From contig JAJBVG010000017.1 in NCBI GenBank assembly GCA_020859945.1, forward strand, positions 1 to 57,976: a stretch of 57,976 nucleotides of DNA. Reading direction: 5' to 3'. Shown one piece after another: positions 43,988 to 56,862 of the stretch (the stretch's first letter is position 1; every line of letters begins with the position of its first letter). The position numbers and the translations under genes are program-made. The notes beneath the pieces were generated by a model. The model searched no databases. It worked only from the letters and a program-made list of their open reading frames with translations, and was not told where the DNA came from. Origin of the DNA: Clostridiales bacterium (lineage in GTDB: Bacteria; Bacillota; Clostridia; Oscillospirales; Oscillospiraceae).

Positions 43988-44039
43988 TGCGCAGCTCCTT
44001 TTGGGTGGTTTCCCTGGGTTCGGTTTCAGCTCTGTTTCA

Positions 44040-44068
44040 GTTATATATGATTTACTCTTTTTTGTCAA
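44040..44068 (-). promoter_or_regulatory. Promoter of proA
   Basis: Minus-strand perfect TTGACA (44068-44063), 17 bases, TATAAC (44045-44040). Confidence 0.75.
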
Positions 44069-44161
44069 GTCACCGCCTCCGGTTGCTTCGCATTACATAA
44101 GCATTTTCCACAAAAAAAGAACCGTTTTCTTGTACAAAACGGAGAACGCGCCTGGGTTGGG

Positions 44162-44190
44162 TTGACTTTTCCCGTGTTTTATGGTAATAC
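44162..44190 (+). promoter_or_regulatory. Distal promoter candidate upstream of the hydrogenase operon
   Basis: TTGACT (44162-44167), 17 bases, TAATAC (44185-44190). It would give a 220-base leader. Confidence 0.45.
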
Positions 44191-44303
44191 ATCTGTATGT
44201 CAGACAATGTACAATACGGTCCTCGCGCTGTCTCCACTCTTCTGTGACGCGAAACTGGTTTAGCCAATCTGTAACAATTTCCAACCGTTTTTTCAGATGA
44301 AGG

Positions 44304-44331
44304 TTGACATTTTCGCTATTTTTTTTATAAT
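44304..44331 (+). promoter_or_regulatory. Main promoter of the hydrogenase operon
   Basis: Perfect TTGACA (44304-44309) and TATAAT (44326-44331) with a 16-base spacer, 83 bases before mbhL. The 427-base gap from proA holds only promoters; a minus-strand frame at 44093-44353 overlaps them and is not accepted as a gene. Confidence 0.85.
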
Positions 44332-44414
44332 AAGACAAAGTGATATTTTTCACAAACTGTCTCGTAACGCCAAAATAATATCGCCCTGCGGGGCGTAAAA
44401 AGAGGGATCTGCTT

Positions 44415-45497
44415 ATGAGCTATACCATTCCCATTGGACCTTACCATCCCGCTCTGGAGGAGCCGATCCACGTCCGCCTGACCGTGGACGGCGAACAGAT
44501 CACCGATGCCAAAACCTTTGTGGGCTACAACCACCGGGGCATCGAAAAGCTGGCCCAGGAGCGGAACTTCATCCAGACCATCGTGCTGGTGGAGCGGGTA
44601 TGCGGCATTTGTTCCCACTCCCACGCCATGACCTACGCCACCTGCGTGGAGAACATCGCTGGAATGGAGGTCCCCAAGCGGGGCCAGTACATCCGGGTCA
44701 TCATCAGTGAGTTGGAGCGCATCCACTCCCATCTGCTGTGGCTGGGCATCGCCTGCCATATCGTAGGCCACGACAGCATGTTCATGCAGTGCTGGAACGA
44801 CCGGGAGCGGACCATGGACACGCTGGAGGCCATCACCGGCAACCGGGTCAACTACGCCATGAACACCATTGGCGGCGCCCGGCGGGACATCGACGACGAG
44901 AAGCGCAAGCTCATCCTCGCCGCCATGGACGACCTGGAGGAGAAGATGGGCCCCATCACCCACTACCTGACCACCGACAAGACCCTCGCCATGCGCACCA
45001 AGGGGGTAGGCATACTGACCACCGAGGACGCCATCCGCATCGGGGCCGCAGGCCCCCACGCCCGGGCCTCCGGGGTGGACGCAGACCTGCGCCGGGATTC
45101 CCCCTATTCCTCCTACGAGGACTTCGACTTCGCCGTGCCGGTGCAGACCTCCTGCGATGTGTACGCCCGGGTGGTCATCCGCGTACTGGAGATTTACGAG
45201 AGCATTAAAATCATCCGCCAGGCGGTGGACAACCTGCCGGAAGGCCCCATCAACTTGGGCAACAAAATGCCCAAGGTCCCTGCCGGTGAGTTCGTGGCCC
45301 GGTATGAGGCCCCCCGCGGCCCCCTGGTCTACCAGGTCGTCACCGACGGCGGTCAGACCAACGCCCGGCTGAGCCTCCACGTCCCCACCTTTAAAAATGC
45401 CCCCACCGTGGCCACCATGCTGCGGGGCAACACCGTGGCGGACGCGGGCCTGATCGTGGCCTCCATCGACCCCTGCTTCTCCTGTCTGGATCGATAA
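44415..45497 (+). CDS. mbhL: Energy-converting [NiFe] hydrogenase, catalytic large subunit
   Basis: A 360-residue group 4 large subunit related to NuoD. All four nickel ligands are present: C63 and C66 (RVCGICSHSHA) and C354 and C357 (DPCFSCLDR). This separates it from complex I and from Mbx/Mbs reductases, which have lost cysteines. The protein ends right at DPCFSCLDR, with no cleavable C-terminal peptide, so it should need no maturation protease. It reduces protons to H2 in the cytoplasm, bound to the membrane. It is the first gene of the operon, away from its small subunit (51677). The start follows AAAAAGAGGGATCTGCTT. Confidence 0.95.
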   Translation: MSYTIPIGPYHPALEEPIHVRLTVDGEQITDAKTFVGYNHRGIEKLAQERNFIQTIVLVERVCGICSHSHAMTYATCVENIAGMEVPKRGQYIRVIISELERIHSHLLWLGIACHIVGHDSMFMQCWNDRERTMDTLEAITGNRVNYAMNTIGGARRDIDDEKRKLILAAMDDLEEKMGPITHYLTTDKTLAMRTKGVGILTTEDAIRIGAAGPHARASGVDADLRRDSPYSSYEDFDFAVPVQTSCDVYARVVIRVLEIYESIKIIRQAVDNLPEGPINLGNKMPKVPAGEFVARYEAPRGPLVYQVVTDGGQTNARLSLHVPTFKNAPTVATMLRGNTVADAGLIVASIDPCFSCLDR

Positions 45498-45498
45498 G

Positions 45499-45840
45499 AT
45501 GCACGAGTTGGCCATCACCCAGAGCATCCTGAAAATCGCGGAGCAGGCGGCCCAGGAAAACGGCGTTCGCCGGGTGCTGGAAATTCGCCTGAAAATCGGC
45601 GACTACTCCGGCGTCGTCCCCCAGTGCGTTCAGGACTACTTCGACATCATCAGCAAAGGCACCGTGGCCGAGGGCGCGGCGCTGAAGCTGGAGCGGCTGC
45701 CCATCCTCATGCGCTGTCAGCGCTGCGGCTGGGAGGGCCAGGTGGACAAGCTCCACATCTGCTGCCCCCAGTGCGGCGGCACCGACCTCAAGCTGCTCCA
45801 GGGCCGGGAGTTCTACGTGGACAGCCTGGAAGTGGAATAA
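45499..45840 (+). CDS. hypA: Hydrogenase nickel incorporation protein HypA
   Basis: A 113-residue nickel chaperone. It begins MHELAITQ, where His2 binds nickel, and has a zinc site of C73-x2-C76 and C89-x2-C92 (MRCQRCGWEG, ICCPQCGG). It delivers nickel to the large subunit encoded one base upstream. Its usual GTPase partner HypB is not in the window. Confidence 0.95.
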   Translation: MHELAITQSILKIAEQAAQENGVRRVLEIRLKIGDYSGVVPQCVQDYFDIISKGTVAEGAALKLERLPILMRCQRCGWEGQVDKLHICCPQCGGTDLKLLQGREFYVDSLEVE

Positions 45841-45904
45841 AAAGAACCGAAATTTTGCTGAAATCATTTTTAATTAAAAACGAACATCAGCCGTCAAGCA
45901 CTAT

Positions 45905-45964
45905 CCCCCCTTGCCTCCCCTGAAAGGGGAGGGGGACCATGCGCAAGCATGGTGGAGGGGTTTT
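45905..45964. repeat. REP-like double-hairpin element
   Basis: CCTCCCCT/AGGGGAGG (45914-45921, 45925-45932) and ACCATGC/GCATGGT (45936-45942, 45947-45953) form adjacent hairpins, with outer CCCC and GGGG runs and a T-run after 45960. It sits in the 250-base gap between hypA and mbhA and could act as a partial terminator. Nothing else is seen in that gap. Confidence 0.6.
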
Positions 45965-46090
45965 CCGGGCGGCGCTATTCTCAGGATCACCCCAAATTGA
46001 ACCATATCAAGCGGAAACCCGTTATTTCAGAGAACTTTTGAGCCAAACAAAGGCGCGGCACGCGCCCAGTGCGGAAAGGAAGGGAAAAAC

Positions 46091-46627
46091 GTGCAGAAAC
46101 CATCAAAATTCGCCTGCTGGCTGTCCACCTTCATCTTATGTATGCTGTTCTGGCTGCTGCTGACCCTGTCGCTGGACCCCATGGAGCTGATTTTGGGCGC
46201 AGTGGTCAGCGGCGTCGTGGCGGCCTTCGCGGGGCATTTCTTCATTCACTACCGGGCTTTCTACCTCTATAACCCGGTGCGGCTGGTGGTGCTCGTGTTT
46301 TACTGCTGCATCATCTTCCTGTGGGAGATGATCAAGGCCAACGTATCCATGGCCCGCATCGTCCTCAGCCCCAACCTGAAAAACTACCAGGCGGGCATCA
46401 TTCGCATCCCCGGCTCGCCCAACATCAAGAGCGAGTACGGCATGGCGATGGTCAGCGACTGCATCACCCTGACCCCTGGCACCATCACCATGGACGTGGC
46501 CGAGGATGAGGAGGAAAACACCTATTATTACGTCCACTGGATCGACGTGACCGAGACCGACCGGGAAAAGGCCGGCGAGGTCATCAAGGGCCGGATGGAA
46601 CGGTGGATCGGGAGGATTTGGCAATGA
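46091..46627 (+). CDS. mbhA: Mrp-type antiporter subunit E / MbhA
   Basis: A 178-residue MnhE/MrpE-family protein with three N-terminal membrane helices and a soluble C-terminal domain (SPNIKSEYGMAMVSDCITLTPGT). The start is GTG, after AAAGGAAGGG. It opens the Mrp module that moves sodium or protons. Its end overlaps the next gene by 4 bases (ATGA). Confidence 0.92.
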   Translation: MQKPSKFACWLSTFILCMLFWLLLTLSLDPMELILGAVVSGVVAAFAGHFFIHYRAFYLYNPVRLVVLVFYCCIIFLWEMIKANVSMARIVLSPNLKNYQAGIIRIPGSPNIKSEYGMAMVSDCITLTPGTITMDVAEDEEENTYYYVHWIDVTETDREKAGEVIKGRMERWIGRIWQ

Positions 46628-46878
46628 TTGAATTTCTCATCGCATCGCTGCTCTTTGTGGTGCTGGCCCTGAGCCTGCTCTACCGGGTGTTCAAAGGCCC
46701 CACCGCCGCCGACCGCCTCTGCGCGGCAGACAGCCTGGACCTGGTCTGCGCCACCGCCCTGGTCCTCTACGCCCTCTATTCGGGCCGGAGCATCTACATG
46801 GACATCGCGCTGGTGGTGGCGCTGCTGGGCTTCGTCAGCACCGTGTTCGTGGCCCGTTACCTGGAAAGGAGGCTGTAA
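46624..46878 (+). CDS. mbhB: Mrp-type antiporter subunit F / MbhB
   Basis: An 84-residue, three-helix MnhF/MrpF-family protein. The family segment YRVFKGPTAADRLCAADSLDLV lies between helices one and two. ATGA overlap with mbhA and TAATG overlap with mbhC indicate coupled translation. The frame is open from 46603, but 46624 gives the normal family start. Confidence 0.92.
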   Translation: MIEFLIASLLFVVLALSLLYRVFKGPTAADRLCAADSLDLVCATALVLYALYSGRSIYMDIALVVALLGFVSTVFVARYLERRL

Positions 46879-47219
46879 TGGTTCGTATCGTCATTGATAT
46901 CTTCCTGGCCGTGGGCGTGATCTTCACCTTTATTGGGGTGCTGGGCGTCCAGCGGATGCCCGACGTGTTCGGGCGGCTCCAGGCAAGCACCTGCATCGCC
47001 ACCCTGGGCAACATCGGCGTGGCTCTGGCGGGCATCGTCTATACTGTGTCCAACCACGGCGAGATCATGGCCTACATTCGGCTGGGCATCATCCTGCTGC
47101 TGATCCTGTGTACCAACCCCATCTCCAACCACGCCCTTTGCAAAGCGGCCTACCGCACCGGCGTCAAGCCCGCCAAGGACCTGGTGATCGACGACTATAA
47201 GGAGGATGATCCGGCATGA
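46878..47219 (+). CDS. mbhC: Mrp-type antiporter subunit G / MbhC
   Basis: A 113-residue MnhG/MrpG protein with three helices. LGVQRMPDVFGRLQASTCIATLG and TNPISNHALCKAAYRTGV are the conserved family segments. The C-terminus is acidic (DDYKEDD). It shares a base with mbhB and overlaps mbhD by 4 bases. Confidence 0.92.
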   Translation: MVRIVIDIFLAVGVIFTFIGVLGVQRMPDVFGRLQASTCIATLGNIGVALAGIVYTVSNHGEIMAYIRLGIILLLILCTNPISNHALCKAAYRTGVKPAKDLVIDDYKEDDPA

Positions 47220-47491
47220 ACTTTGAGGGCGTTCTGGTATTCATCCTGAATACACTGGCCATCGTGGGCGCGGTGGCCGCAGCCTGCGTGACGGTTCACG
47301 CCAAGCGGCTCATCGACTCCTGTATCGCCCTGGCTGCCACCGGCTCCTTCGTGGCGCTGGAGTTCCTGTTGCTCCAGGCCCCTGACGTGGCCATCGCGGA
47401 GGCCAGCGTGGGCGCGGTGCTGTCCACCATCCTGTACATCATCGCCATCCGCAAGGTGCGCGCTGCTGAGGAGGAGGAAGAGAACTCATGA
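47216..47491 (+). CDS. mbhD: MbhD / DUF4040 subunit (MrpA C-terminal-like)
   Basis: A 91-residue protein with three membrane helices corresponding to the first part of the MrpA C-terminal region. FLLLQAPDVAIAEASVGAVLSTILYIIAIRK is the conserved stretch, seen here as shorter blocks, with the APDVAIAEA core intact. It is a membrane part of the ion-pumping module. Confidence 0.9.
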   Translation: MNFEGVLVFILNTLAIVGAVAAACVTVHAKRLIDSCIALAATGSFVALEFLLLQAPDVAIAEASVGAVLSTILYIIAIRKVRAAEEEEENS

Positions 47492-47868
47492 AGCTGAAAA
47501 AGATCCTGCTGCCCGTGGCGCTCATCGTCCTGATGGTCTGCGGCGTGTACACCGCCATTCTGATGGCGTCCAGCGAACCCACCTACAACGGCGAGGACGT
47601 GGACCTGGTGGCGCTCTATGAGGACCCCAGCTCCTACGACAACAGCGACGCCGACGGCGCCGCCGCCATCATCATCAACGAGAACCTGGAAAAGACCGCC
47701 GCTGAAAACGTGGTGTTCAGCGTGGTCTACAACTTCCGTGGCTACGACACCATGGGCGAGAGCTTCATCCTCATCGCCGCCATCGCCGGTTCGCTGGTGA
47801 TCCTGCGCAAGGCGGTGCGGTACGACGAGGACGGCAACCCCATCGAGGACGAGGAGGATGAACTATGA
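47488..47868 (+). CDS. mbhE: MbhE-like subunit with large extracytoplasmic loop
   Basis: A 126-residue protein with one helix near residues 5-27 and one near 91-108. Between them is a polar loop of about 60 residues. VVYNFRGYDTMGESFILIAAIAG is the family hallmark of MbhE and the end of MrpA; FRGYDTMGE is seen at 83-91. The C-terminal tail is acidic (DEDGNPIEDEEDEL). ATGA overlaps join it to both neighbours. Confidence 0.87.
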   Translation: MKLKKILLPVALIVLMVCGVYTAILMASSEPTYNGEDVDLVALYEDPSSYDNSDADGAAAIIINENLEKTAAENVVFSVVYNFRGYDTMGESFILIAAIAGSLVILRKAVRYDEDGNPIEDEEDEL

Positions 47869-48353
47869 AGCGTACTTATCGCAGAAAAAACGTCATCGTC
47901 CGGTGCGGCGCGGACCTGTTCCTGCCCCTGGGCTGTGTGTTCGGCTGCTACGTCATCTTCCACGGCAACACCAGTCCCGGCGGCGGCTTCCAGGGCGGCG
48001 TGCTGGTGGCCAGCGCCATCCTGATGGTGTTCCTGGGCCACGGCGGACCCGGTGTAAAGGACTCCTTTCGGGCCAGTTTGCTCCACAGCAGCGAGACTAT
48101 CGCGGAAATTATGTATGTGCTCATCGCCCTGCTGGGCGTCTTTACCGGGCTGAACTTCTGTATGAACTTCGTCTTTGCGGGGCATCAGTTGGAGACCAGC
48201 ATCCTGATGAACGACGTAGTGGGCTACCACGTTATGGCAGGTATCATCTGTCTGCTCATCGTCATGCTCAACACCCTGGACGAGGACGACGTGCGCAAGG
48301 ACGAAAATCGTCAGCTTCGCAGCGAGAGCGAGGAGGAGGTCGAGGAAGAATGA
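47865..48353 (+). CDS. mbhF: Mrp-type antiporter subunit B / MbhF
   Basis: A 162-residue MnhB-family protein with four helices. HGNTSPGGGFQGGVLVASAIL is the signature. The C-terminal tail is strongly acidic (SESEEEVEEE). It belongs to the Mrp sodium/proton module. The gene overlaps both neighbours by 4 bases. Confidence 0.93.
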   Translation: MKRTYRRKNVIVRCGADLFLPLGCVFGCYVIFHGNTSPGGGFQGGVLVASAILMVFLGHGGPGVKDSFRASLLHSSETIAEIMYVLIALLGVFTGLNFCMNFVFAGHQLETSILMNDVVGYHVMAGIICLLIVMLNTLDEDDVRKDENRQLRSESEEEVEEE

Positions 48354-48700
48354 TGGTCACAAATTACATCGGCTGTTTTGTCCTCATTGTGTTGGGGCTT
48401 TACTGCATGGTGGTCAAGCATAACCTCATTAAAATCATGATGGGCATGGGCTTGGTGGACTACGGCGTGAACCTGCTGCTGGTCACGGTGGGCTTCCATT
48501 ACGGCGGCACCGCCCCCATCTTCAACATCGCGGAGCTGACCCGCGCCAGCTTCTTCGTGGACCCCATCCCCCAGGCGCTGACGCTGACTAGCGTGGTCAT
48601 CGGCGCCTGTACCACCGCCATGAGTTTGGCCCTGGGCATCAAGCTGAAAGAGCAGTACGGTACCCTGGACACCCGTAAGATCAGGAGGTTGAACGGCTGA
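48350..48700 (+). CDS. mbhG: Mrp-type antiporter subunit C / MbhG (NuoK-like)
   Basis: A 116-residue three-helix NuoK/MrpC-like protein. VVKHNLIKIMMGMGLVDYGVN and DPIPQALTLTSVVIGACTTAM are conserved in the family. Of two adjacent ATG codons, the first (48350) overlaps the mbhF stop. It connects the membrane ion channel parts. Confidence 0.92.
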   Translation: MMVTNYIGCFVLIVLGLYCMVVKHNLIKIMMGMGLVDYGVNLLLVTVGFHYGGTAPIFNIAELTRASFFVDPIPQALTLTSVVIGACTTAMSLALGIKLKEQYGTLDTRKIRRLNG

Positions 48701-50640
48701 TGAGTGCCTTTATGAACAACTTCCCCGTTCTGGCGGTCATGACCCTGTTCGTGGGAGGTTTCCTGAACTCTCTGGTGGGCCGCCGCCATGCGGTCCTGCA
48801 AAAAATCGTCGTGCTGGTGGCTGTCACCGGCGCACTGGCCATGATGCTGGCGCTGATCAAACCGGTGCTGGTGGACGGCGAGATCATCACCTACTGGCTG
48901 GGCAACTGGGAGCCTGTGGAGGGCTGGGCCATCGGCATCGCCCTGGAAGTGGACGCCCTGAGCCTGTTCTTCGGCCTCATCGTCGTGGTTGCGGTGTTCG
49001 TGTCGGGGGTCTACTCCTTCACCTACATGAGCCGGGACGACAGCTTGGTGAATTACTACACCCTGTTTATGATGCTGGGCGGCTCGGTGCTGGGCCTGGT
49101 GCTCTCCGGCGACCTGTTCAACATCTTCGTCATGGTGGAGATCATGACCTTCACCGCCGTGGCGCTGACCGCCTTCCGCAGCCACTATGAGGGCGCGCTG
49201 GAGGGCGCGATGAAGTACCTGGTGGTGGGCTCTCTGGGTTCCACCTTCCTGCTGGTGGGCATCGCCATTCTGTACTCCCAGCTCCACACTCTGAACCTGG
49301 CGCAAATCGCCGCCCTGCTGCCGGAGCAGAGCGACAACCCGCTGGCGGGCGTGGCTTTCGCCTTCCTGTTCATCGGCTTCGCCTCCAAAGCGTTCCTGTT
49401 CCCCTTCCAGCCCCTGGCGGCTGACGCCCACGCTGTCGCTCCGGCCTCCATCTCCCTGATGATCTCCGGCGTGCTGACCAAGTGCGGCGTCTACGGCATC
49501 ATCCGGCTGTGCTACATCCTCTACCAGAACATGGACCTGGCTGTGGTGCAGTACCTGGTCACGGGCTTCGGCGCGGTGACGATGTTCATCTGCGTCACCA
49601 TGGCCTTCCAGCAGCACAACTTCAAGCGCCTGCTGGCCTTCCACTCCATCTCTCAGGTGGGGTACGTCATCACCGCTATTGGCCTTGGCTCCGCCTTGGG
49701 CGTCAGCGCTGGCCTGTACCACGCCATGAACCACACCATCTTTAAGGGCCTCCTGTTCCTGACCGCCGGCGCGGTGCAGCACCAGACCGGCAGTCTGGAC
49801 TTGGACGGACTGGGCGGCCTGGCCAAGAAAATGCCCCGCACCACGGCTCTGTTCCTCATCGGCGCGGCCTCCATCAGCGGCCTGCCCCCCTTCAACGGCT
49901 TCGCCTCCAAGTGGATGATCTATCAGGCCACCTTCCAGAAGGGCGTGGAAACGAACAACTTCTTCTTTATCATCGTCTGTGTGCTGGCGCTGCTGACCAG
50001 CGTCCTGACCCTGGCCTCCTTTATTAAGGTGACGCAGAGCGTGTTCTTCGGCCAACTGCCGGAGAAGTACAAGGACGTGAAGGAAGTCCCGCTGCTCATG
50101 CGCATCCCCATGTGGATTTTGGCGGTGCTGTGCATTATCACCGGCCTGTTCCCCACCCAGGTGCAGAACTGGGTGCTGCTCCCCGCCACCAACGCCGTTT
50201 TCAACGCCGCCAGTTACATCGACGCGGCCATGGGCGAGGGCTACGCCGCTCTCCACAACATCGTCTCCAGCGGCGTGACCTCTCTGGGCGTGTCCACCTG
50301 TTGGAGCCCCCTGTCCTGGCTGGCACTGCTGTTCTGTGTCACCTGCGCCGTGACCATTGTGGCCCTGCTGGGCGGCCCGGACAGCAAAGAGGATTCCCAC
50401 GTCTCCGCTGCGGACGAGAACGCGGAGGAGCTGGACCCCAAGTACGAGCCGTTCTTCTCCGGTGAGGAGAGCGTCTACTCTCAGGTGGGCGGCAGCGACC
50501 TGTTCTGGGGCTTCAAGCACAGCTGGCGGAAGTATTTCACCTTCTGGACCAACTGGCACAGCGGCGTCGTCAACGACTACACCCTCTACGGCGTGGTGGT
50601 GACCGCCTTCGTGCTGCTGGCCTGCATCATCGTGCTGTAA
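48700..50640 (+). CDS. mbhH: Mrp-type antiporter subunit D / MbhH (NuoL/M/N-like)
   Basis: A 646-residue proton- or sodium-pumping subunit with about fourteen helices. SGDLFNIFVMVEIMTFTAVAL carries the conserved glutamate of the pump, FPFQPLAADAHAVAPASIS and FHSISQVGYVITAIG follow. Usual MrpD proteins are about 490-500 residues. Here an extra 110 or so residues hold an acidic soluble stretch (about 560-610) and one last helix (627-645). Confidence 0.93.
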   Translation: MSAFMNNFPVLAVMTLFVGGFLNSLVGRRHAVLQKIVVLVAVTGALAMMLALIKPVLVDGEIITYWLGNWEPVEGWAIGIALEVDALSLFFGLIVVVAVFVSGVYSFTYMSRDDSLVNYYTLFMMLGGSVLGLVLSGDLFNIFVMVEIMTFTAVALTAFRSHYEGALEGAMKYLVVGSLGSTFLLVGIAILYSQLHTLNLAQIAALLPEQSDNPLAGVAFAFLFIGFASKAFLFPFQPLAADAHAVAPASISLMISGVLTKCGVYGIIRLCYILYQNMDLAVVQYLVTGFGAVTMFICVTMAFQQHNFKRLLAFHSISQVGYVITAIGLGSALGVSAGLYHAMNHTIFKGLLFLTAGAVQHQTGSLDLDGLGGLAKKMPRTTALFLIGAASISGLPPFNGFASKWMIYQATFQKGVETNNFFFIIVCVLALLTSVLTLASFIKVTQSVFFGQLPEKYKDVKEVPLLMRIPMWILAVLCIITGLFPTQVQNWVLLPATNAVFNAASYIDAAMGEGYAALHNIVSSGVTSLGVSTCWSPLSWLALLFCVTCAVTIVALLGGPDSKEDSHVSAADENAEELDPKYEPFFSGEESVYSQVGGSDLFWGFKHSWRKYFTFWTNWHSGVVNDYTLYGVVVTAFVLLACIIVL

Positions 50641-50653
50641 AGGAGGCGGAATT

Positions 50654-51622
50654 ATGACTGATTTGCTTTTTAATCTGATTTATGTGCTGCTGTTCCCCGG
50701 CCTGCTGTTCTGCGTGGTCATGGGGGTACTGCTGGCGGGTCTGGACCGCATTTGGGTGGCCCGGATGCAGCGCCGCGTGGGGCCGCCTCTGCTCCAGGGC
50801 TGGTATGACTTCCTGAAGTGCTGCGGCAAGGAGACCATCATCCCCCGCCACGGCAAAAAGGCCATCTACTACGGCGCGCCCCTGCTGGGCTTTGTGGCAC
50901 TCATTACCATTTCCCTGTTCCTGCCTGTGGTGAACGGTCATGCCGCTTTCTCCGGCACGGCGGACTTAGTCGTGATTCTGTACCTGCTGACCCTGGTCAG
51001 CGTGTGCATGATCGTCGGTGCCTCGGCCACCGGCTCCCCCTTCGCCGGGGTGGGCCTGAGCCGGGAGATGGTGGCTATGATTTCCTATGAGCTGCCCTTC
51101 GTGCTGGTCATCCTGGCGGTCAGCAAGGCTGTCCTCCCCGCCGGAGGCGGCGCGTCCTACACCTTCTCCCTCCAGGCCATCGCGGACTATCAGGCCACCA
51201 ACGGCCCCCTCATCACCCACTGGGCACTGATCCCCGCCGCCATCGCCATGCTCTTCGTCATCCCCTGCGAGGTGGGGATGCACCCCTTCGACGTGTCCGA
51301 GGCGGAGACCGAAATCTGCGAGGGCACCCTGGCGGAGTACAGCGGTCCTCCCCTGGCTCTATACCGGCTGACCCATATGGTGAAAATGTTCATCATGACC
51401 GCCCTGTTCTGCGTCCTGTTCCTGGGCGGCATCAGCACCGGCTTTGTGGTGCTGGACACGCTGATTTTGATCGTGTTCTGTCTGGTGCTGACCTTCCTGA
51501 CCATGAGCTTGCCCCACGCCGTCTGCGCCCGGTTCAAGACCGAGCAGGTGTTCCAGTTCTACTGGACCGTGGTGGCTGGACTGGCGGCAGTCAGCCTGAT
51601 TCTGGTCTGGCTGGGATTCTAA
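50654..51622 (+). CDS. mbhM: Hydrogenase membrane anchor MbhM (NuoH-like)
   Basis: A 322-residue, eight-helix NuoH-family protein that links the catalytic arm to the membrane. ARMQRRVGPPLLQGWYDFLK and HPFDVSEAETEICEGTLAEY are conserved; the acidic residues in the latter belong to the ion path. GGAGGCGGAATT precedes the ATG. It also matches EchB and HycD. Confidence 0.94.
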   Translation: MTDLLFNLIYVLLFPGLLFCVVMGVLLAGLDRIWVARMQRRVGPPLLQGWYDFLKCCGKETIIPRHGKKAIYYGAPLLGFVALITISLFLPVVNGHAAFSGTADLVVILYLLTLVSVCMIVGASATGSPFAGVGLSREMVAMISYELPFVLVILAVSKAVLPAGGGASYTFSLQAIADYQATNGPLITHWALIPAAIAMLFVIPCEVGMHPFDVSEAETEICEGTLAEYSGPPLALYRLTHMVKMFIMTALFCVLFLGGISTGFVVLDTLILIVFCLVLTFLTMSLPHAVCARFKTEQVFQFYWTVVAGLAAVSLILVWLGF

Positions 51623-51676
51623 GGAAATCGGCCCGCCGCCCGCCTGTGTCGCTGGGCGGCAGAAGGGAGAAGCTTC

Positions 51677-52123
51677 ATGTTTGATAAACTGATTGACAAC
51701 AGCATGGCGAAAAGCCCCTGGATTTTCCACATCAACGCCGGTTCCTGCAACGGCTGCGACATCGAGCTGGTCAGCGTGCTGACCCCCCGGTACGACGCGG
51801 AGCGGCTGGGCTTCCGGCTGACCGGCACCCCCCGTCAGGCGGACATCGTGGTGGTCAGTGGCCCCATCACCCTCCAGACCCGTGACCGGCTGGTGCGGAC
51901 GCTGGCCCAGGTGCCGGAACCTCGGGTAGTGGTGAGCCTCGGCTCCTGTCCCCGCTCGGGCAACGTGTTCAAGGGCAGCTACGCCATCGACGGGCCGCTG
52001 GACAAGTACACCCACGTGGACGTATCCGTTGGCGGCTGCACCCCCAAGCCGGAGGCAATCGTGGCTGCTCTGGCTCAGGCCGCGGAAATCCTGCGGGAAA
52101 AGAGGAAGGAGATGCACAAGTAA
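51677..52123 (+). CDS. mbhJ: Hydrogenase small subunit MbhJ (NuoB-like)
   Basis: A 148-residue protein with the proximal [4Fe-4S] cluster: C24 and C27 (GSCNGCDIEL), C91 (LGSCPRSGN) and C121 (GGCTPKPEA). It passes electrons from the ferredoxin subunit to the large subunit. The next gene starts at its stop codon. No Tat signal is present, as expected for group 4 enzymes. Confidence 0.95.
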   Translation: MFDKLIDNSMAKSPWIFHINAGSCNGCDIELVSVLTPRYDAERLGFRLTGTPRQADIVVVSGPITLQTRDRLVRTLAQVPEPRVVVSLGSCPRSGNVFKGSYAIDGPLDKYTHVDVSVGGCTPKPEAIVAALAQAAEILREKRKEMHK

Positions 52124-52701
52124 TGCTTCCCTATCTCACCAAAGCCCTGACCAACCTGGTCAAAAAGCCCGTCACCGAAAAATTCCCCGCCGGGGACCCG
52201 CCCAAGGCGGCGGAGGGCTACCGGGGCCGTATCCAGTACGACCCGGAAAAGTGTATCAACTGCGGCATGTGTATGCGGGTCTGCGCCCCCCAGTGTATGC
52301 ACCGGGACATTGAAAAGCTGGAAAACGGCGACCAGAAGATCACCTTCACCTTTGACCTGACCAGTTGCACCTTCTGCTCTATGTGCGCGGACTTCTGCGC
52401 CCGCCACGCCATCACGCTGTCGGACGACTATATGATCGTGGGCACTCAGCCGGAGGACTTTCTGGTGACCGGCACCTTCGTCAAGAAAGCGCCGCCTCCC
52501 AAGCCCAAGTTCACCCCAGAGCAGATTGCCGCAATGAAAGCCAAGGCCGAGGCGGCAAAAGCGGCCAAAGCCGCCGCAGGAGGCGCAGGAGGCGCTGCAC
52601 CCAAGCCCAAGCTGACGCCGGAAGAGATCGCCGAGCGGAAGGCCAAGGCGGAGGCCGCAAAAGCGGCCAAAGCTGCCGCCGTCCAGCAGGGGGAAGCCTG
52701 A
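52123..52701 (+). CDS. mbhN: Hydrogenase ferredoxin-like subunit MbhN (NuoI-like) with repeat tail
   Basis: A 192-residue protein. Two [4Fe-4S] motifs, CINCGMCMRVC and CTFCSMCADFC, span about residues 44-90 and accept electrons from ferredoxin. From about residue 126 the chain is a Lys/Ala-rich tail built from two near copies of a 30-residue unit (KPKFTPEQIAAMKAKAEAAK and KPKLTPEEIAERKAKAEAAK). Usual MbhN or EchF proteins lack it. Confidence 0.94.
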   Translation: MLPYLTKALTNLVKKPVTEKFPAGDPPKAAEGYRGRIQYDPEKCINCGMCMRVCAPQCMHRDIEKLENGDQKITFTFDLTSCTFCSMCADFCARHAITLSDDYMIVGTQPEDFLVTGTFVKKAPPPKPKFTPEQIAAMKAKAEAAKAAKAAAGGAGGAAPKPKLTPEEIAERKAKAEAAKAAKAAAVQQGEA

Positions 52702-52702
52702 T

Positions 52703-52921
52703 ATGTGCCTTGCGATTCCCATGCGCCTGACGGAAATCGACGGCAACGACGCCGTGGCCGAAGTGGACGGCGTCAAGCGGAAGATTCGCGTGGATTTCAT
52801 CAAGGAGCCGAAGGTGGGCGACTACGTCATCGCCCACGCGGGATTTGCCATTGAGCGGCTTCAGGAACAACAGGCGCTGGACAACCTGGAGGCCATTCGG
52901 GAGGTCGCTGATGCTCTCTGA
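52703..52921 (+). CDS. hypC: Hydrogenase maturation chaperone HypC
   Basis: A 72-residue protein starting MCLAIPMRL, whose Cys2 is needed to hand the Fe(CN)2CO unit from HypD to the large subunit. GDYVIAHAGFAIERL is the family's second block. It starts one base after mbhN and overlaps hypD by 11 bases. Confidence 0.95.
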   Translation: MCLAIPMRLTEIDGNDAVAEVDGVKRKIRVDFIKEPKVGDYVIAHAGFAIERLQEQQALDNLEAIREVADAL

Positions 52922-54011
52922 GGCCGCCTTTGCCCGGCTGCCGGAGGGGAAAAAGCTGCTCCGGGGTATTCAAGAAATGGAACTGCCCGGCCCCGTCTGC
53001 CTGATGGAGGTCTGCGGCACCCACACCATGGCCATTGCCAAGGCAGGGCTGCGGCAGCTGCTGCCGGAGGGCGTGGAGCTGCGCTCCGGGCCGGGCTGCC
53101 CGGTGTGCGTCACCCCGGCGGGGGTGATGGACGGAGTGCTGGCTCTCAGCGAGACGCCGGGGCTGATTTTGACCACCTACGGCGACCTGATGCGGGTCCC
53201 CGGTTCCACGCCGGGAGACGACCTCCAGCGCCGCCGGGCCATGGGCGCGGATGTGCGCTGGGTCTACTCCCCCATGGACGCGCTGGAGCTGGCCCAGGCG
53301 GAGCCGGACAAACAGGTGGTGTTCCTGGGCGTGGGGTTCGAGACTACCGCGCCGGGCACCGCTCTGGCGGTGCTGGAGGCCCAGCGGCGGGGAATCACGA
53401 ACTTCTCCCTGCTGTGCCTGCTGAAACGGACGGAACCGGCCCTCCGCGCCCTGATTTCTCGCCCGGACTTTCGGGTGAATGGCTTCCTCTGCCCCGGCCA
53501 TGTGGCCGCCATCACAGGGGCGGAGGCGTTTCGGTTTTTGCCGGAGGAATACGGCCTCCCGGCGGTGGTCTCCGGCTTCGAGACTGGCGACCTGCTGGCG
53601 GCGGTTTACGCGCTGCTGACCCAGATTCGGGACGGCGCGCCCCGGCTGGAAAACGAATACACCCGCGTGGTGTCCCCCCAGGGCAACCCGGCGGCGCTGG
53701 CCTTGATGGAACAGGTGCTGGAGCCGGTGGACAGTGTCTGGCGGGGGCTGGGGGAGATTCCCGAAAGCGGCCTGGGGCTGCGGAAGGAATTTCGGGTCTT
53801 CGACGCAGCAAAGCGGTTTTCCTTCTCCCCCGGTCAGCGGGTGGAGAACGCCGGCTGCCGCTGTGGGGCCATTATCTGCGGCCAGCTGAACCCCCAGGAC
53901 TGCCCGCTGTTCGGCACAGCCTGTCAGCCGGAGCATCCCGTGGGGCCGTGTATGGTCTCCTCCGAGGGGGCCTGCGCCGCAGCGTATAAGTATCAGGGGG
54001 TAGAACTGTGA
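52911..54011 (+). CDS. hypD: Hydrogenase maturation protein HypD
   Basis: A 366-residue iron-sulfur protein that assembles the Fe(CN)2CO group. Conserved motifs are EVCGTHTMAIAKAG, SGPGCPVCVTP, GVGFETTAPGTA, NGFLCPGHVA and the C-terminal cysteines in ENAGCRCGAIICG and VSSEGACAAAY. The frame is open from 52845, but the family start is at 52911 within the hypC end. Confidence 0.94.
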   Translation: MLSEAAFARLPEGKKLLRGIQEMELPGPVCLMEVCGTHTMAIAKAGLRQLLPEGVELRSGPGCPVCVTPAGVMDGVLALSETPGLILTTYGDLMRVPGSTPGDDLQRRRAMGADVRWVYSPMDALELAQAEPDKQVVFLGVGFETTAPGTALAVLEAQRRGITNFSLLCLLKRTEPALRALISRPDFRVNGFLCPGHVAAITGAEAFRFLPEEYGLPAVVSGFETGDLLAAVYALLTQIRDGAPRLENEYTRVVSPQGNPAALALMEQVLEPVDSVWRGLGEIPESGLGLRKEFRVFDAAKRFSFSPGQRVENAGCRCGAIICGQLNPQDCPLFGTACQPEHPVGPCMVSSEGACAAAYKYQGVEL

Positions 54012-55009
54012 ACGAGGAAATCATCACCCTGGACCACGGCGGCGGCGGTCAACGCACCGCCCAGCTCATTGAAGAACTGTTGCTGCCTGCCTATGGCAAC
54101 CCGGCGCTGAACGCCCTGGGAGACGGGGCGGTGCTGGACCTGGAAGGCCCGCTGGCCTTTTCCACCGACAGCTTTGTGGTCAGTCCGCTGTTTTTCCCCG
54201 GCGGGGACATCGGCAAGCTGGCAGTCTGCGGCACCGTGAACGACCTTGCCATGTGCGGCAGCGTCCCCAAATATCTCAGCCTCTCCATGGTGCTGGAGGA
54301 GGGTCTGCCGCTGGCCGACCTGCGAAAAATCGTCACCTCCGTGGCGGAGACCGCCAAACGCGCCGGGGTGCAAATCGTCACCGGCGACACCAAGGTGGTG
54401 GAGCATGGCAAGGGCGACGGCATTTATCTGAACACCGCCGGCATCGGCGTCCTGCGCTGGCCGGGGCTGACCCCTGACGCCATCCGTCCGGGAGACGCGG
54501 TAATTCTGTCCGGCACGATGGGCGACCACGGCGTCACCGTCATGCTGGCCCGCAGCGGATTGATGGAGGGCAGTACCCTCCGCTCCGACTGTCAGCCCCT
54601 GCATCGGCTGGCGCAAGCGGCGCTGGACTGCGGCGGTGTGCGGGTACTGCGGGACCCCACCAGAGGCGGCGTAGCCACCACGTTGAACGAGTTCACCGAG
54701 AACCGCCCCTTCTCCATCTGTCTGGAGGAGGACGCGCTGCCCGTCAGCCTGTCCGTACAGGCGGCCTGTGACCTGCTGGGGTTGGACCCCCTGTATTGTG
54801 CCAACGAGGGCAAACTGCTGGCCGTGGTCGCGCCGGAAAAGGCCGAGGCGGTGCTTTCCGCGCTGAAAAGCACTCCCGGCGGCGAGAACGCAGCGGTCAT
54901 CGGCCATGTCTCGGAGCGGCATCCCGGCCGGGTGCTGCTGCGCACCGGACTGGGCGGCAGTCGTATCCTGACCCGGCTCAGCGGGACGCAGCTCCCTCGT
55001 ATTTGTTAA
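54008..55009 (+). CDS. hypE: Hydrogenase maturation protein HypE
   Basis: A 333-residue dehydratase of the PurM fold that turns a carbamoyl thioester into cyanide for the active site. It starts with a GTG overlapping the hypD stop. ITLDHGGGGQRTAQLIEEL, GDTKVVEHGKGDGIYLNTAG and DPTRGGVATTLNEF are conserved, and the protein ends in PRIC, whose last cysteine carries the cyanide. HypF, which charges that cysteine, is not in the window. Confidence 0.95.
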   Translation: MNEEIITLDHGGGGQRTAQLIEELLLPAYGNPALNALGDGAVLDLEGPLAFSTDSFVVSPLFFPGGDIGKLAVCGTVNDLAMCGSVPKYLSLSMVLEEGLPLADLRKIVTSVAETAKRAGVQIVTGDTKVVEHGKGDGIYLNTAGIGVLRWPGLTPDAIRPGDAVILSGTMGDHGVTVMLARSGLMEGSTLRSDCQPLHRLAQAALDCGGVRVLRDPTRGGVATTLNEFTENRPFSICLEEDALPVSLSVQAACDLLGLDPLYCANEGKLLAVVAPEKAEAVLSALKSTPGGENAAVIGHVSERHPGRVLLRTGLGGSRILTRLSGTQLPRIC

Positions 55010-55045
55010 TGAAATCGACTTAAAACACCGAAAGGCGGCGTCGTT

Positions 55046-55429
55046 ATGCAGACTAACAAGAAAATTTCCATCACAAAGGACGAAATCGTCCCCACCGCCC
55101 AAGCCATGCGGGAGGCGGGTCACGTGCTGGTGATGATCCACGGCCACCGGGACAAGGACGGCCAGCCGGTCATCAGCTACCACTACGACAACGGCCCGGA
55201 GACCGTCGGCTATGAGGTGGTGGGAGAGGAAGAGGTCCCCTCCATCGCGCCCATCTATGACGCCGCCGCCGAGTGGCCGGAGCGGGAGCTGAACGAGCTG
55301 CTGGGCTTCACCTTTACCGGGCTGGACACCAGCGAGCGGCTGTTCCTGCCAGACAACATGCTGGACGGCAAGGGGCAGATCATCGTCACCCCCATCAACG
55401 TGCTGAAAGAGAAAAACGGCCTGCTGTGA
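55046..55429 (+). CDS. mbhK: Hydrogenase subunit MbhK (NuoC-like)
   Basis: A 127-residue NuoC-family protein. PIYDAAAEWPERELNELLGF and DTSERLFLPDNM match the closing region of the 30-kDa complex I subunit and EchD. In known Mbh operons this gene lies between the small and large subunit genes; here it is last, after hypE. The ribosome site AAAGGCGG is moderate. The terminator 9 bases after the stop ends the operon. Confidence 0.88.
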   Translation: MQTNKKISITKDEIVPTAQAMREAGHVLVMIHGHRDKDGQPVISYHYDNGPETVGYEVVGEEEVPSIAPIYDAAAEWPERELNELLGFTFTGLDTSERLFLPDNMLDGKGQIIVTPINVLKEKNGLL

Positions 55430-55437
55430 GGTAGGCG

Positions 55438-55475
55438 CAAAAAGGGCGGGTCCCGCGAAAGGACCCGCCCTTTTT
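55438..55475. terminator. Bidirectional terminator of the hydrogenase operon and anti-sigma gene
   Basis: AAAGGGCGGGTCC (55441-55453) pairs with GGACCCGCCCTTT (55461-55473); T-runs lie on both sides. Confidence 0.92.
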
Positions 55476-55499
55476 ATGGTTCGATTGAGAAAATCTCGG

Positions 55500-56324
55500 T
55501 CACGAAATCGTCACCCTGCCGTTTTCAAAGCTGTTGGCGTCGCTGCTAAAGTGCTCAATGGAGAAGCAGTACACCCCGTCCTCCTGGATGGAGAAGGTGT
55601 AGCTGTGCTGTTGGGCGGAAACCGTCTCCGCTCCGGTGAACACGCCATCCTGGAACACGCCGAAAGCCAGACTGCACGTGTCGTTGGCCTCCAGCGTCAC
55701 CGTCACCGTGTCCCCGGCAGACAGGGTATAGCCCTCCTCCCCTTCCGGGTAGAGCAGCACCATACTGCCATTGTCCATGGCGAAAGCCGGGAACTGGCCG
55801 TTTTCGTCTGTCGCCAGCTCGTTCAGGCTGTGTGGAAGCGTCCCGCTGGGGATGGTGCTCATGTCCACCAGCGTGGTGCTGTCGATGACCGCCTGCTCCT
55901 GTTCCTCCAACCGGGCACGCTCGTAGGCGATGGCCTCCTCTTTGGTCAGTGTCATGACCTCGTTGCCGTCCTCGTCATAGTAGTGGGTGGTCCCGTCCGC
56001 GTCCTCGCTCATTCCGGCCACGGCCGCCCCCGCTTGCTCCAGCAGGGCGGATTTTTCCCAATCGCTCATGCCATCCGTCAGGGCAAAGCCCGTCCACTGG
56101 GCCACGGCCACCCCTGCCGCCGTCAGGCACAGAAGCCCGGCCAGCACCGCCGCCACAAGGCCAATTTTGGTCACGCGGCGGGTCATGCGCCCACGCCTGG
56201 GCGCGTTTTTGATTTTTTTCATTGTCATCCCCTCAATCGTGTCGGCGGAGACCTGCTCCCGCTCCTGCATTTCCACGGGAACCGCCTCCACGTGATCCAT
56301 CAGGTCAGAAATTCGCATCTTCAA
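55500..56324 (-). CDS. Membrane anti-sigma-factor-like protein
   Basis: A protein of about 274 residues. An N-terminal cytoplasmic part (about 50 residues) precedes a single membrane helix (GLVAAVLAGLLCLTAAGVAV). An outer region follows with an acidic helix and a C-terminal beta domain (YTLSAGDTVTVTLEAND...YTFSIQEDG). The gene overlaps the sigma gene by 20 bases. AGGAGG lies eight bases before a TTG at 56324, which I take as the start; the ATG at 56318 is 14 bases away. It should hold the sigma factor at the membrane and sense an external signal. Unrecognised as a named family. Confidence 0.78.
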   Translation of the reverse strand: MKMRISDLMDHVEAVPVEMQEREQVSADTIEGMTMKKIKNAPRRGRMTRRVTKIGLVAAVLAGLLCLTAAGVAVAQWTGFALTDGMSDWEKSALLEQAGAAVAGMSEDADGTTHYYDEDGNEVMTLTKEEAIAYERARLEEQEQAVIDSTTLVDMSTIPSGTLPHSLNELATDENGQFPAFAMDNGSMVLLYPEGEEGYTLSAGDTVTVTLEANDTCSLAFGVFQDGVFTGAETVSAQQHSYTFSIQEDGVYCFSIEHFSSDANSFENGRVTIS

Positions 56325-56862
56325 CGGTATAGCCTCCTTTTGTCAGTTGTTCTTTCAGTTTCTTACGGCCCCGGCGGAGCTTGGTCTTGACGGTGGAGAC
56401 GTTCAGCCCCAGTTCTTCCGCGATGACCGCCACCGGCTGATAGTAGTAATAGTATCGGAAGAAGATCTCTCGTTCAGGGGATTGCATGGCGGAAATCGTC
56501 CGGCGCAGACAGGCGGCCAGCTCCTTTGTCTCCAGCTTTCGCTCCGGCCCGTCCACTGTGATTTGCAGTACGTCCTCCTCCAGCGGCAGGTCAATACCCC
56601 GCTTTCGGGCAAATTCTCTGGCTTTGTTCCGGGCCACGCCGCCCAAATACGCCTTCACCTTGTCCGGCACGACCTGCCTGGCGTTGACCCAGAGGATGTA
56701 AAACACGTCCGCGGTCACTTCCTCCAGGTCGGCGCGGGAGATGGATGCTCCGCCGATATTAGCGACGATGGTGCTGACATAGCCGGTGTACCGCTGAATG
56801 AACCATGCCAGCGCCGTCTCATCGCCCCTCCGCAGTCGTTTCAGCGCTTCGCGCTCCTCCAT
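56305..56862 (-). CDS. ECF-type RNA polymerase sigma factor
   Basis: A 185-residue sigma-70 factor with only regions 2 and 4. Region 2 is RRGDETALAWFIQRYTGYV through EEVTADVFYILWVNA, and region 4 is YYYYYQPVAVIAEELGLNVSTVKTKLRRGRKKL. It probably drives a surface-stress or secretion regulon, together with the downstream membrane protein. GGGGGTGACGCA precedes the ATG. About 40 bases upstream is the palindrome GAACGGGCCGTTC, a possible control site. Confidence 0.92.
   Translation of the reverse strand: MEEREALKRLRRGDETALAWFIQRYTGYVSTIVANIGGASISRADLEEVTADVFYILWVNARQVVPDKVKAYLGGVARNKAREFARKRGIDLPLEEDVLQITVDGPERKLETKELAACLRRTISAMQSPEREIFFRYYYYYQPVAVIAEELGLNVSTVKTKLRRGRKKLKEQLTKGGYTVEDANF

Follow-up and report, generated by a model that had tools for sequence, protein, structure and literature searches.

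Which enzyme is encoded by the 17 genes that run in the same direction from position 44415 to position 55429 (+ strand) on contig JAJBVG010000017.1 of a Clostridiales bacterium from the family Oscillospiraceae (assembly GCA_020859945.1), and which known hydrogenases are its kin? The window, by which we mean the whole analysed stretch of 57,976 nucleotides, belongs to a genome of 2.67 Mb in 97 contigs that is 99.5% complete. Open reading frames (ORFs) and profile matches give the order L-hypA-A-B-C-D-E-F-G-H/I-M-J-N-hypC-hypD-hypE-K, in which single letters stand for mbh genes. We favour, at a probability of about 0.7, the reading that these genes form one operon for an Mbh-like, Mrp-linked group 4 [NiFe]-hydrogenase that would couple ferredoxin-driven H2 evolution to the export of Na+ (or H+), with a catalytic arm sister to that of Coo hydrogenases and with genes in a rotated order. 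The original prediction, made from the letters of the window, had proposed an Mrp-linked membrane-bound hydrogenase of Mbh type with all its modules at this site. The set of genes is indeed complete, with the active site of a group 4 [NiFe] enzyme intact, and every ORF that it listed was recovered in the same place and order.

Subunits were identified with NCBIfam profiles for L, hypA and A to H and with Pfam profiles for M, J, N, HypC, HypD, HypE and K, and a PDB sequence comparison covered L, H, M, J, the I-like tail, B, D, G and K. Only hypA and mbhC pass a curated NCBIfam cut-off, and L, A, B and D to H match related families below theirs. The large subunit, mbhL (44415-45497, 360 amino acids), carries the four nickel cysteines that the original prediction had named, in CGIC and DPCFSC motifs that are invariant in 22/22 aligned sequences, the window included. 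Its best solved-structure match is MbhL of Pyrococcus furiosus (6cfw_L, 308 bits, versus 177 bits to Mbs 6u8y_L). Mbx and Mbs enzymes, described in the original prediction as having a large subunit without nickel cysteines, are rejected because all four are present. The protein ends at Arg360 in all 22 aligned sequences and thus lacks a C-terminal extension; the other clostridial rows of the L tree likewise have no residues past the last motif (16/16), and in loci L047, L052 and L066 the final residue is Cys, Val or Asp, not Arg. (Labels with L and G denote related loci and genomes, respectively.) Because there is no extension, a maturation protease would probably not be needed. An AlphaFold model of L (predicted local distance difference test score, pLDDT, 68.5) has formate hydrogenlyase 7z0s_E as its best Foldseek match and 6cfw_L as its fifth, and we take it to support only the fold of the protein.

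The remainder of the catalytic arm is also encoded. The NuoH-like anchor mbhM (50654-51622) matches NADHdh (Pfam), and the small subunit mbhJ (51677-52123), with its proximal 4Fe-4S site, matches Oxidored_q6 (Pfam) and contains CNGC, GSC and GGC motifs; both have 6cfw as best PDB match (137 and 158 bits, respectively). The gene mbhN (52123-52701, Fer4 in Pfam) encodes two 4Fe-4S motifs of the form CxxCxxCxxxC followed by an Ala/Lys-rich tail. The NuoC-like mbhK (55046-55429) matches Complex1_30kDa (PF00329) with 43.8 bits.

The original prediction listed Mrp subunits A to H, all of which are present, and missed MbhI, which is fused to MbhH. These genes are mbhA (MrpE-like, 46091-46627, start codon uncertain, below the NCBIfam cut-offs), mbhB (MrpF-like, 46624-46878), mbhC (MrpG-like, 46878-47219; TIGR01300, 86.3 bits, cut-off 63.1), mbhD (DUF4040, 47216-47491), mbhE (47488-47868, an NCBIfam match with a Pfam score of 25.3 bits, slightly below the cut-off of 27), mbhF (MrpB-like, 47865-48353, below the NCBIfam cut-offs), mbhG (MrpC-like, 48350-48700) and the antiporter mbhH (MrpD-like, 48700-50640, 646 amino acids including the MbhI part), which is supported by Pfam, NCBIfam, PDB and alignment evidence. 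The best PDB sequence match of H is 6cfw (290 bits), and that of B, D and G is Mbs 6u8y, which is related to Mbh. Residues E147, K230 and K404, which we take to have roles in proton transfer, are kept in 23/23 aligned sequences and align with P. furiosus MbhH. For Mrp and MBH, a Na+ path has been proposed (PMC7419157; here and below, published work is represented by excerpts) that runs through MbhB/MrpF D35, MbhD E69 and MbhG N34, D37 and H41. PDB alignments show that the MbhB Asp, the MbhD Glu and MbhG D37 are kept in the window.

Residues 576-643 of H (50425-50628) match only one solved chain, 6cfw_I (E 1.3e-5). A C-terminal tail of more than 60 amino acids occurs in 74/75 clostridial H sequences, the window included, and a profile of this tail matches all eight clostridial Mbh loci scanned (L117-L124) and none of the Coo, Ech, three-antiporter, formate hydrogenlyase and complex I loci scanned (L111-L116, L141-L178). 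These results indicate that MbhI is present as a fusion to H. The AlphaFold model of H/I (pLDDT 81.9) matches antiporter folds, best among them Mrp 7qru_D. At 35%, 6cfw_H is the most identical in sequence among the matches listed, and it ranks 42nd. Since 6cfw_I is not among the Foldseek matches listed and the linker at residues 561-601 is modelled with low confidence, the assignment of I rests on sequence.

Maturation genes within the locus are hypA for a nickel chaperone (45499-45840; TIGR00100, 101.9 bits, cut-off 88.1), hypC (52703-52921; PF01455, 86.5 bits), hypD (52911-54011 from a likely ATG start, with the longest ORF beginning at 52845; PF01924, 473.8 bits) and hypE (54008-55009; AIRS domains in Pfam). 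The suggestion that the operon carries most of its assembly factors is therefore correct for HypA, C, D and E (4/6), and the other two are encoded on different contigs. Both are divergent, with hypF on contig C90 being 39% identical to the hypF of L118 and hypB on contig C39 being 62% identical to the hypB of L118. In many relatives, including the same-genus genome G240 that contains L118, hypB is located between hypA and A and hypF is located beside hypC.

Several features are consistent with the predicted existence of a single transcription unit, as had been proposed originally. A sigma-70-type promoter match (TTGACA-16-TATAAT, 44304-44331, + strand) agrees with the consensus at 12/12 positions and ends 83 bp from the start of L; a consensus scan of 44000-56400 yields 4 promoter-like sites versus 2.7 expected. 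Directly 3′ of mbhK is a hairpin followed by T's (55439-55475, + strand) that resembles an intrinsic terminator (-28.4 kcal/mol, z -5.47, 0/200 shuffles as stable). Intergenic distances range from -17 to +54 bp, with the exception of the 250 bp between hypA and A (45841-46090). This gap is the position of hypB in many relatives, and no hypB remnant was found in the window by tblastn with operonic hypB.

The order of the genes is indeed unlike the A-N order of Pyrococcus, as the original prediction had noted. As for the maturation genes, which it described as woven in, a comparison of gene order across relatives shows that they were not newly inserted. K is located immediately before L in 54 of 80 related loci, 3′ of N in only four (L032, L033, L049 and L050), and is not in view in the remaining 22. 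Of these K-L loci, 52 were scored for hypE (L063 and L108 were left out of the 54), and in 33 of them it immediately precedes K. The common clostridial order is (hypF)-hypCDE-K-L-hypA-(hypB)-A...H/I-M-J-N, and the order in the window is the same circle cut elsewhere, before L rather than before hypF/hypC, and without hypB and hypF. Where longer stretches are available, the hyp genes and K follow N in our genome and in L117-L121, and K precedes L in L122 and L123. Two loci are not simple rotations: in L049 the stretch from N to K is free of hyp genes, and in L050 hypD-hypE is located about 8 kb upstream of L and the arrangement N-hypC-K is seen. On the L+J+M tree the change of order amounts to one step, with L047 and L052 scored by the lack of K upstream of L and not by a K observed 3′ of N. 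K-L adjacency is also found in Ech-order and Coo-order loci, and in three-antiporter loci where K was found, and it is therefore likely to be the older state. The block may have moved by tandem duplication with loss of the ends, or by transposition.

Trees were built for L alone (53 rows), for L+J+M and for H (49 rows, also used for the topology tests). The first L+J+M tree has 52 rows, lacks M for L157 and contains one Coo row. The second has 40 rows, to which five Coo and two formate hydrogenlyase loci were added and from which all complex I, four clostridial, three three-antiporter and six Ech rows were dropped. In the 40-row tree the clostridial clade (100/100) is sister to a Coo-order clade (98/99), and P. 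furiosus lies outside both, weakly beside formate hydrogenlyase. The single Coo row of the 52-row tree joins the clostridial clade (99/99), with P. furiosus again outside, and the clostridial enzyme falls outside the Ech clade in the L and the 40-row L+J+M trees. Thus, the label 'Mbh type' in the original prediction is apt for the architecture of the enzyme but is not supported by these trees for its descent. For H, approximately unbiased (AU) tests reject a grouping with either Coo antiporter half (p 0.003 and 0.003 singly, 0.021 for both together) and do not reject a grouping with P. furiosus MbhH (p 0.41). The catalytic arm therefore appears nearest to Coo-order hydrogenases, and the membrane arm looks Mbh/Mrp-like. 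That the two arms point to different kin is a lead rather than proof, because P. furiosus is represented by one long branch.

How might such an enzyme function? Electrons from reduced ferredoxin would travel via the two 4Fe-4S clusters of MbhN and then via MbhJ, and would reach the NiFe centre of MbhL and there reduce protons to H2. MbhM would anchor this redox arm beside the antiporter-like MbhH/I, such that the redox step drives ion movement and MbhA-G export Na+, or possibly H+. HypA, C, D and E from the operon, together with the unlinked HypB and HypF, would complete the cofactor without a protease. The electron donor, direction, ion and coupling are all predicted from sequence. Since no catalytic gene for carbon monoxide dehydrogenase (CODH) was found in the genome at E 0.001, the donor is likely to be ferredoxin and not CO. 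The genome also contains a V-type ATPase K subunit with the sequence LPGTQ, which we take to be a Na+-type motif. Of the original proposal that the enzyme complements or replaces Rnf, the first half fits this genome and the second does not, since both rnfC and rnfD are present. Alongside Rnf, the enzyme probably serves to release electrons from ferredoxin as H2 while exporting ions.

A number of observations weigh against the reading that we favour, and some of them are what would be expected if this were a plain bacterial member of the archaeal Mbh (4d), related to Thermococcales Mbh by descent or by transfer and with its genes shuffled. The only 4d sequence in the trees is that of P. furiosus, which is one long branch, and the groupings put to the AU tests were picked once the trees had been seen. 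Forcing P. furiosus and clostridial L+J+M together is 19 log units worse, a borderline result (AU p 0.055) that does not reject such a clade at 0.05. The L-alone tree does not join its one Coo row to the clostridial clade but places it beside formate hydrogenlyase (93/84), and P. furiosus groups with the three-antiporter group (81/91). Three further points fit either reading: L, H, M, J and I all have 6cfw as their best PDB match, the A-N set is complete, and H is compatible with MbhH as described above. What makes the archaeal-Mbh explanation less likely is the sister relationship of L+J+M to the Coo-order clade, the absence of an extension on L, as in 4c, 4e and certain 4g enzymes (PMC7294309), and a redox order of M-J-N...K-L-hypA, which is that of Coo loci and not the J-K-L-M-N contained in the Pyrococcus A-N order given by the original prediction. 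Other points concern the individual parts. K is weakly supported (best PDB E 0.0028, to formate hydrogenlyase, and 6cfw_K at E 0.15), and MbhG differs from P. furiosus at two of the three named Na+-site positions (N34 to Gly and H41 to Asn, P. furiosus numbering). The hairpin 3′ of mbhK is absent from the list of a consensus terminator scan, which gives 18 sites versus 10.1 expected and includes weaker + strand matches within the operon. An F-type c subunit in the genome lacks the Gln that we presume to be part of a Na+ site, so that the cell may have an H+ circuit as well as a Na+ circuit. Finally, the genome encodes one [FeFe]-hydrogenase, and thus Mbh need not be the main source of H2.

Two further explanations concern how, or whether, the complex works. 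One is that the enzyme runs chiefly backwards, or in both directions, and draws on H2 and an ion gradient to reduce ferredoxin. In its favour are the presence of Rnf and the [FeFe]-hydrogenase in the same genome and a HydDB table that lists Ech-type ferredoxin enzymes as physiologically reversible (PMC5037454). We consider this unlikely, in that the lack of a detectable CODH catalytic gene gives no indication of an acetogenic need for low-potential ferredoxin. Less probable still is that the odd gene order reflects decay, with an operon being dismantled and a non-functional complex. This idea draws on the fact that the operons of our genome, L032, L033 and L117 are without hypB and hypF, but the subunit ORFs are intact, the ligands are conserved, the unlinked HypB and HypF score above cut-offs, and the promoter match and terminator hairpin remain in place. 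A broader extension of the favoured operon model is that clostridial Mrp-linked hydrogenases in general are chimeras of a Coo-lineage catalytic arm and a membrane arm of the Mbh/Mrp type that has an I linker of its own, such that the Mbh design arose by module exchange and not by simple descent from archaeal Mbh, and that this pump has supplanted Rnf as the ferredoxin-driven ion pump in some gut genera. We offer this only as a speculative proposal, with the odds against it.

The distribution of the enzyme bears on its relation to Rnf. An L-like gene is present in 36/400 family genomes at E 1e-60, of which 30 are of the type described here (66-100% identity) and six are Ech-order (39-43%). Ten genomes were sampled from the host's own genus, with six carrying Mbh, three carrying the Ech-order enzyme and one carrying neither. 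Rnf, judged by rnfC at E 1e-60 plus rnfD, is missing from six of the 30 Mbh genomes (G398, G066, G145, G202, G255 and G094). There is no significant opposition between Mbh and Rnf across the family (rnfC in 24/30 Mbh genomes versus 329/370 others, the latter including the six Ech-order genomes; Fisher p 0.14). Among the listed genomes of the related genus g66, three with Mbh lack rnfC and rnfD and five without Mbh have both (p 0.018, with no correction for kinship); the 27 family genomes beyond those listed may include more from g66. The opposed occurrence of Mbh and Rnf makes this genus a possible natural experiment.

Some features of the locus and its relatives are recorded here in their own right. 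The MbhN tail (52489-52698) is of low complexity and Ala/Lys-rich, and contains an imperfect tandem repeat. Among 76 Mbh-type loci in L031-L124, the number of CxxCxxCxxxC motifs in N is mostly even, with 39 loci having two, nine four, 14 six, five eight, four ten and five an odd number, although some genomes are counted twice and some odd counts come from cut ORFs. The many cluster motifs within L055-L123, as in L080, L057 and L122, suggest that several rumen Lachnospiraceae have a polyferredoxin on this hydrogenase. The hypA-A gap holds pieces of a dispersed intergenic repeat that also occurs on another contig of the genome (L131). The upstream neighbour of the operon, on the - strand, is an aldehyde-dehydrogenase-family gene (proA-like). 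Downstream, also on the - strand and convergent to the operon (55500-56862), are an extracytoplasmic function (ECF)-type sigma factor gene and an overlapping hypothetical gene without a Pfam match, which possibly encodes an anti-sigma factor.

Surveys of hydrogen metabolism in the human gut and the rumen, in the excerpts represented here, describe mainly [FeFe] enzymes, name Ech (4e), and leave the 4g enzymes of Clostridium functionally unresolved (PMC12578642, PMC6776011). The present locus supplies an Mrp-linked enzyme that is complete and belongs to gut Oscillospiraceae, and its kin occur in Lachnospiraceae and Clostridium. Among the 80 related loci, the closest are from metagenome-assembled genomes named Clostridiales bacterium (L 96-99% identical), and of the named genera Pseudoflavonifractor is nearest (86%). 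Some kin are in named isolates, such as Pseudoflavonifractor sp. An44, in which one could test which ion is pumped, what donates the electrons and how the enzyme relates to Rnf. In addition, the separation of K from L in the rotated operon lends itself to studying the bearing of gene order on the assembly of complex I-like enzymes. The kind of enzyme is known in outline, and no description of the H-I fusion, the rotated operon order or the mixed descent was found in the literature searched, which was mostly outside subscription journals.

Among known systems, Coo hydrogenase is placed by the 40-row L+J+M tree as sister to the clostridial enzyme, which is not inside the Coo clade. It shares an order of M-J-N-K-L(-hypA) once the ends of the clostridial operon are joined, and, in L151, a 360-amino-acid L without an extension. 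By our own reading, the Coo-order loci L151, L170 and L172-L175 are group 4c. They read double antiporter-M-J-N-K-L, with hypA next in 5/6 (not seen in L175). They differ in having one double antiporter of 1274-1299 amino acids where the window has Mrp A-H/I with a single H/I, and both loci scanned (L172 and L174) have a CODH catalytic gene nearby (TIGR01702, 779 bits), whereas none was found in our genome at the threshold used. The single H/I and the missing CODH thus set the enzyme apart from Coo (4c). Ech-order enzymes of the same genus (L111-L113, 4e by gene order) resemble it in being group 4 enzymes with hypF-hypCDE downstream and no extension on L, but have six subunits, no Mrp A-G and 39-40% identity in L. 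Ech (4e) is rejected, given that Mrp A-G are present and L is outside the Ech clade. In L111, L112 and L113, the Ech-order enzyme and hypF-hypCDE stand in place of the Mrp-linked enzyme, and the N subunit of L111 has 387 amino acids with several cluster motifs. Complex I is likewise rejected because there is no NADH module in the operon, and the genome holds one L match at E 1e-5. Loci L141-L149 contain a different group 4 enzyme, possibly a complex I-like hydrogenase, which has three antiporters together with D- and G-like subunits. Its L has a DPC..C motif in 9/9, an extension of 28-47 amino acids and the N-terminal CxxC pattern in 4/9.

The closest resemblance in architecture is to P. furiosus Mbh (6cfw, 4d), with which the enzyme shares the A-N set including MbhI, the four-cysteine NiFe site, the Mrp module and J, K, M and N. 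The differences are the fusion of MbhI to MbhH, the gene order, the hyp genes within the operon, the position of L+J+M outside any group with P. furiosus in the 40-row tree, and an L without the C-terminal extension that we take P. furiosus MbhL to have. In the HydDB scheme, 4d is ferredoxin-coupled and Mrp-linked and 4g is putatively ferredoxin-coupled (PMC5037454). Hydrogenases without a C-terminal extension include 4c, 4e and certain uncharacterised 4g enzymes (PMC7294309), and thus the state of our L is that of certain 4g members but is not exclusive to 4g. Mrp-linked Mbh enzymes of Cloacimonadota and Omnitrophota have been classed as 4g (PMC8542988), and the 4g enzymes of rumen Clostridium have high RNA/DNA ratios (PMC6776011). 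Likened by description only, these too are Mrp-linked membrane hydrogenases of fermenters. The Mrp-Mbh of Saganbacteria RX6A, reported as nearest to those of Pelobacter propionicus and Clostridia, is described as having Mrp subunits and a group 4 hydrogenase with no extra oxidoreductase module (PMC6349859), and is compared here by that description only. By architecture the enzyme is Mbh-like, and these comparisons suggest that it perhaps belongs among the little-studied Mrp-linked 4g enzymes.

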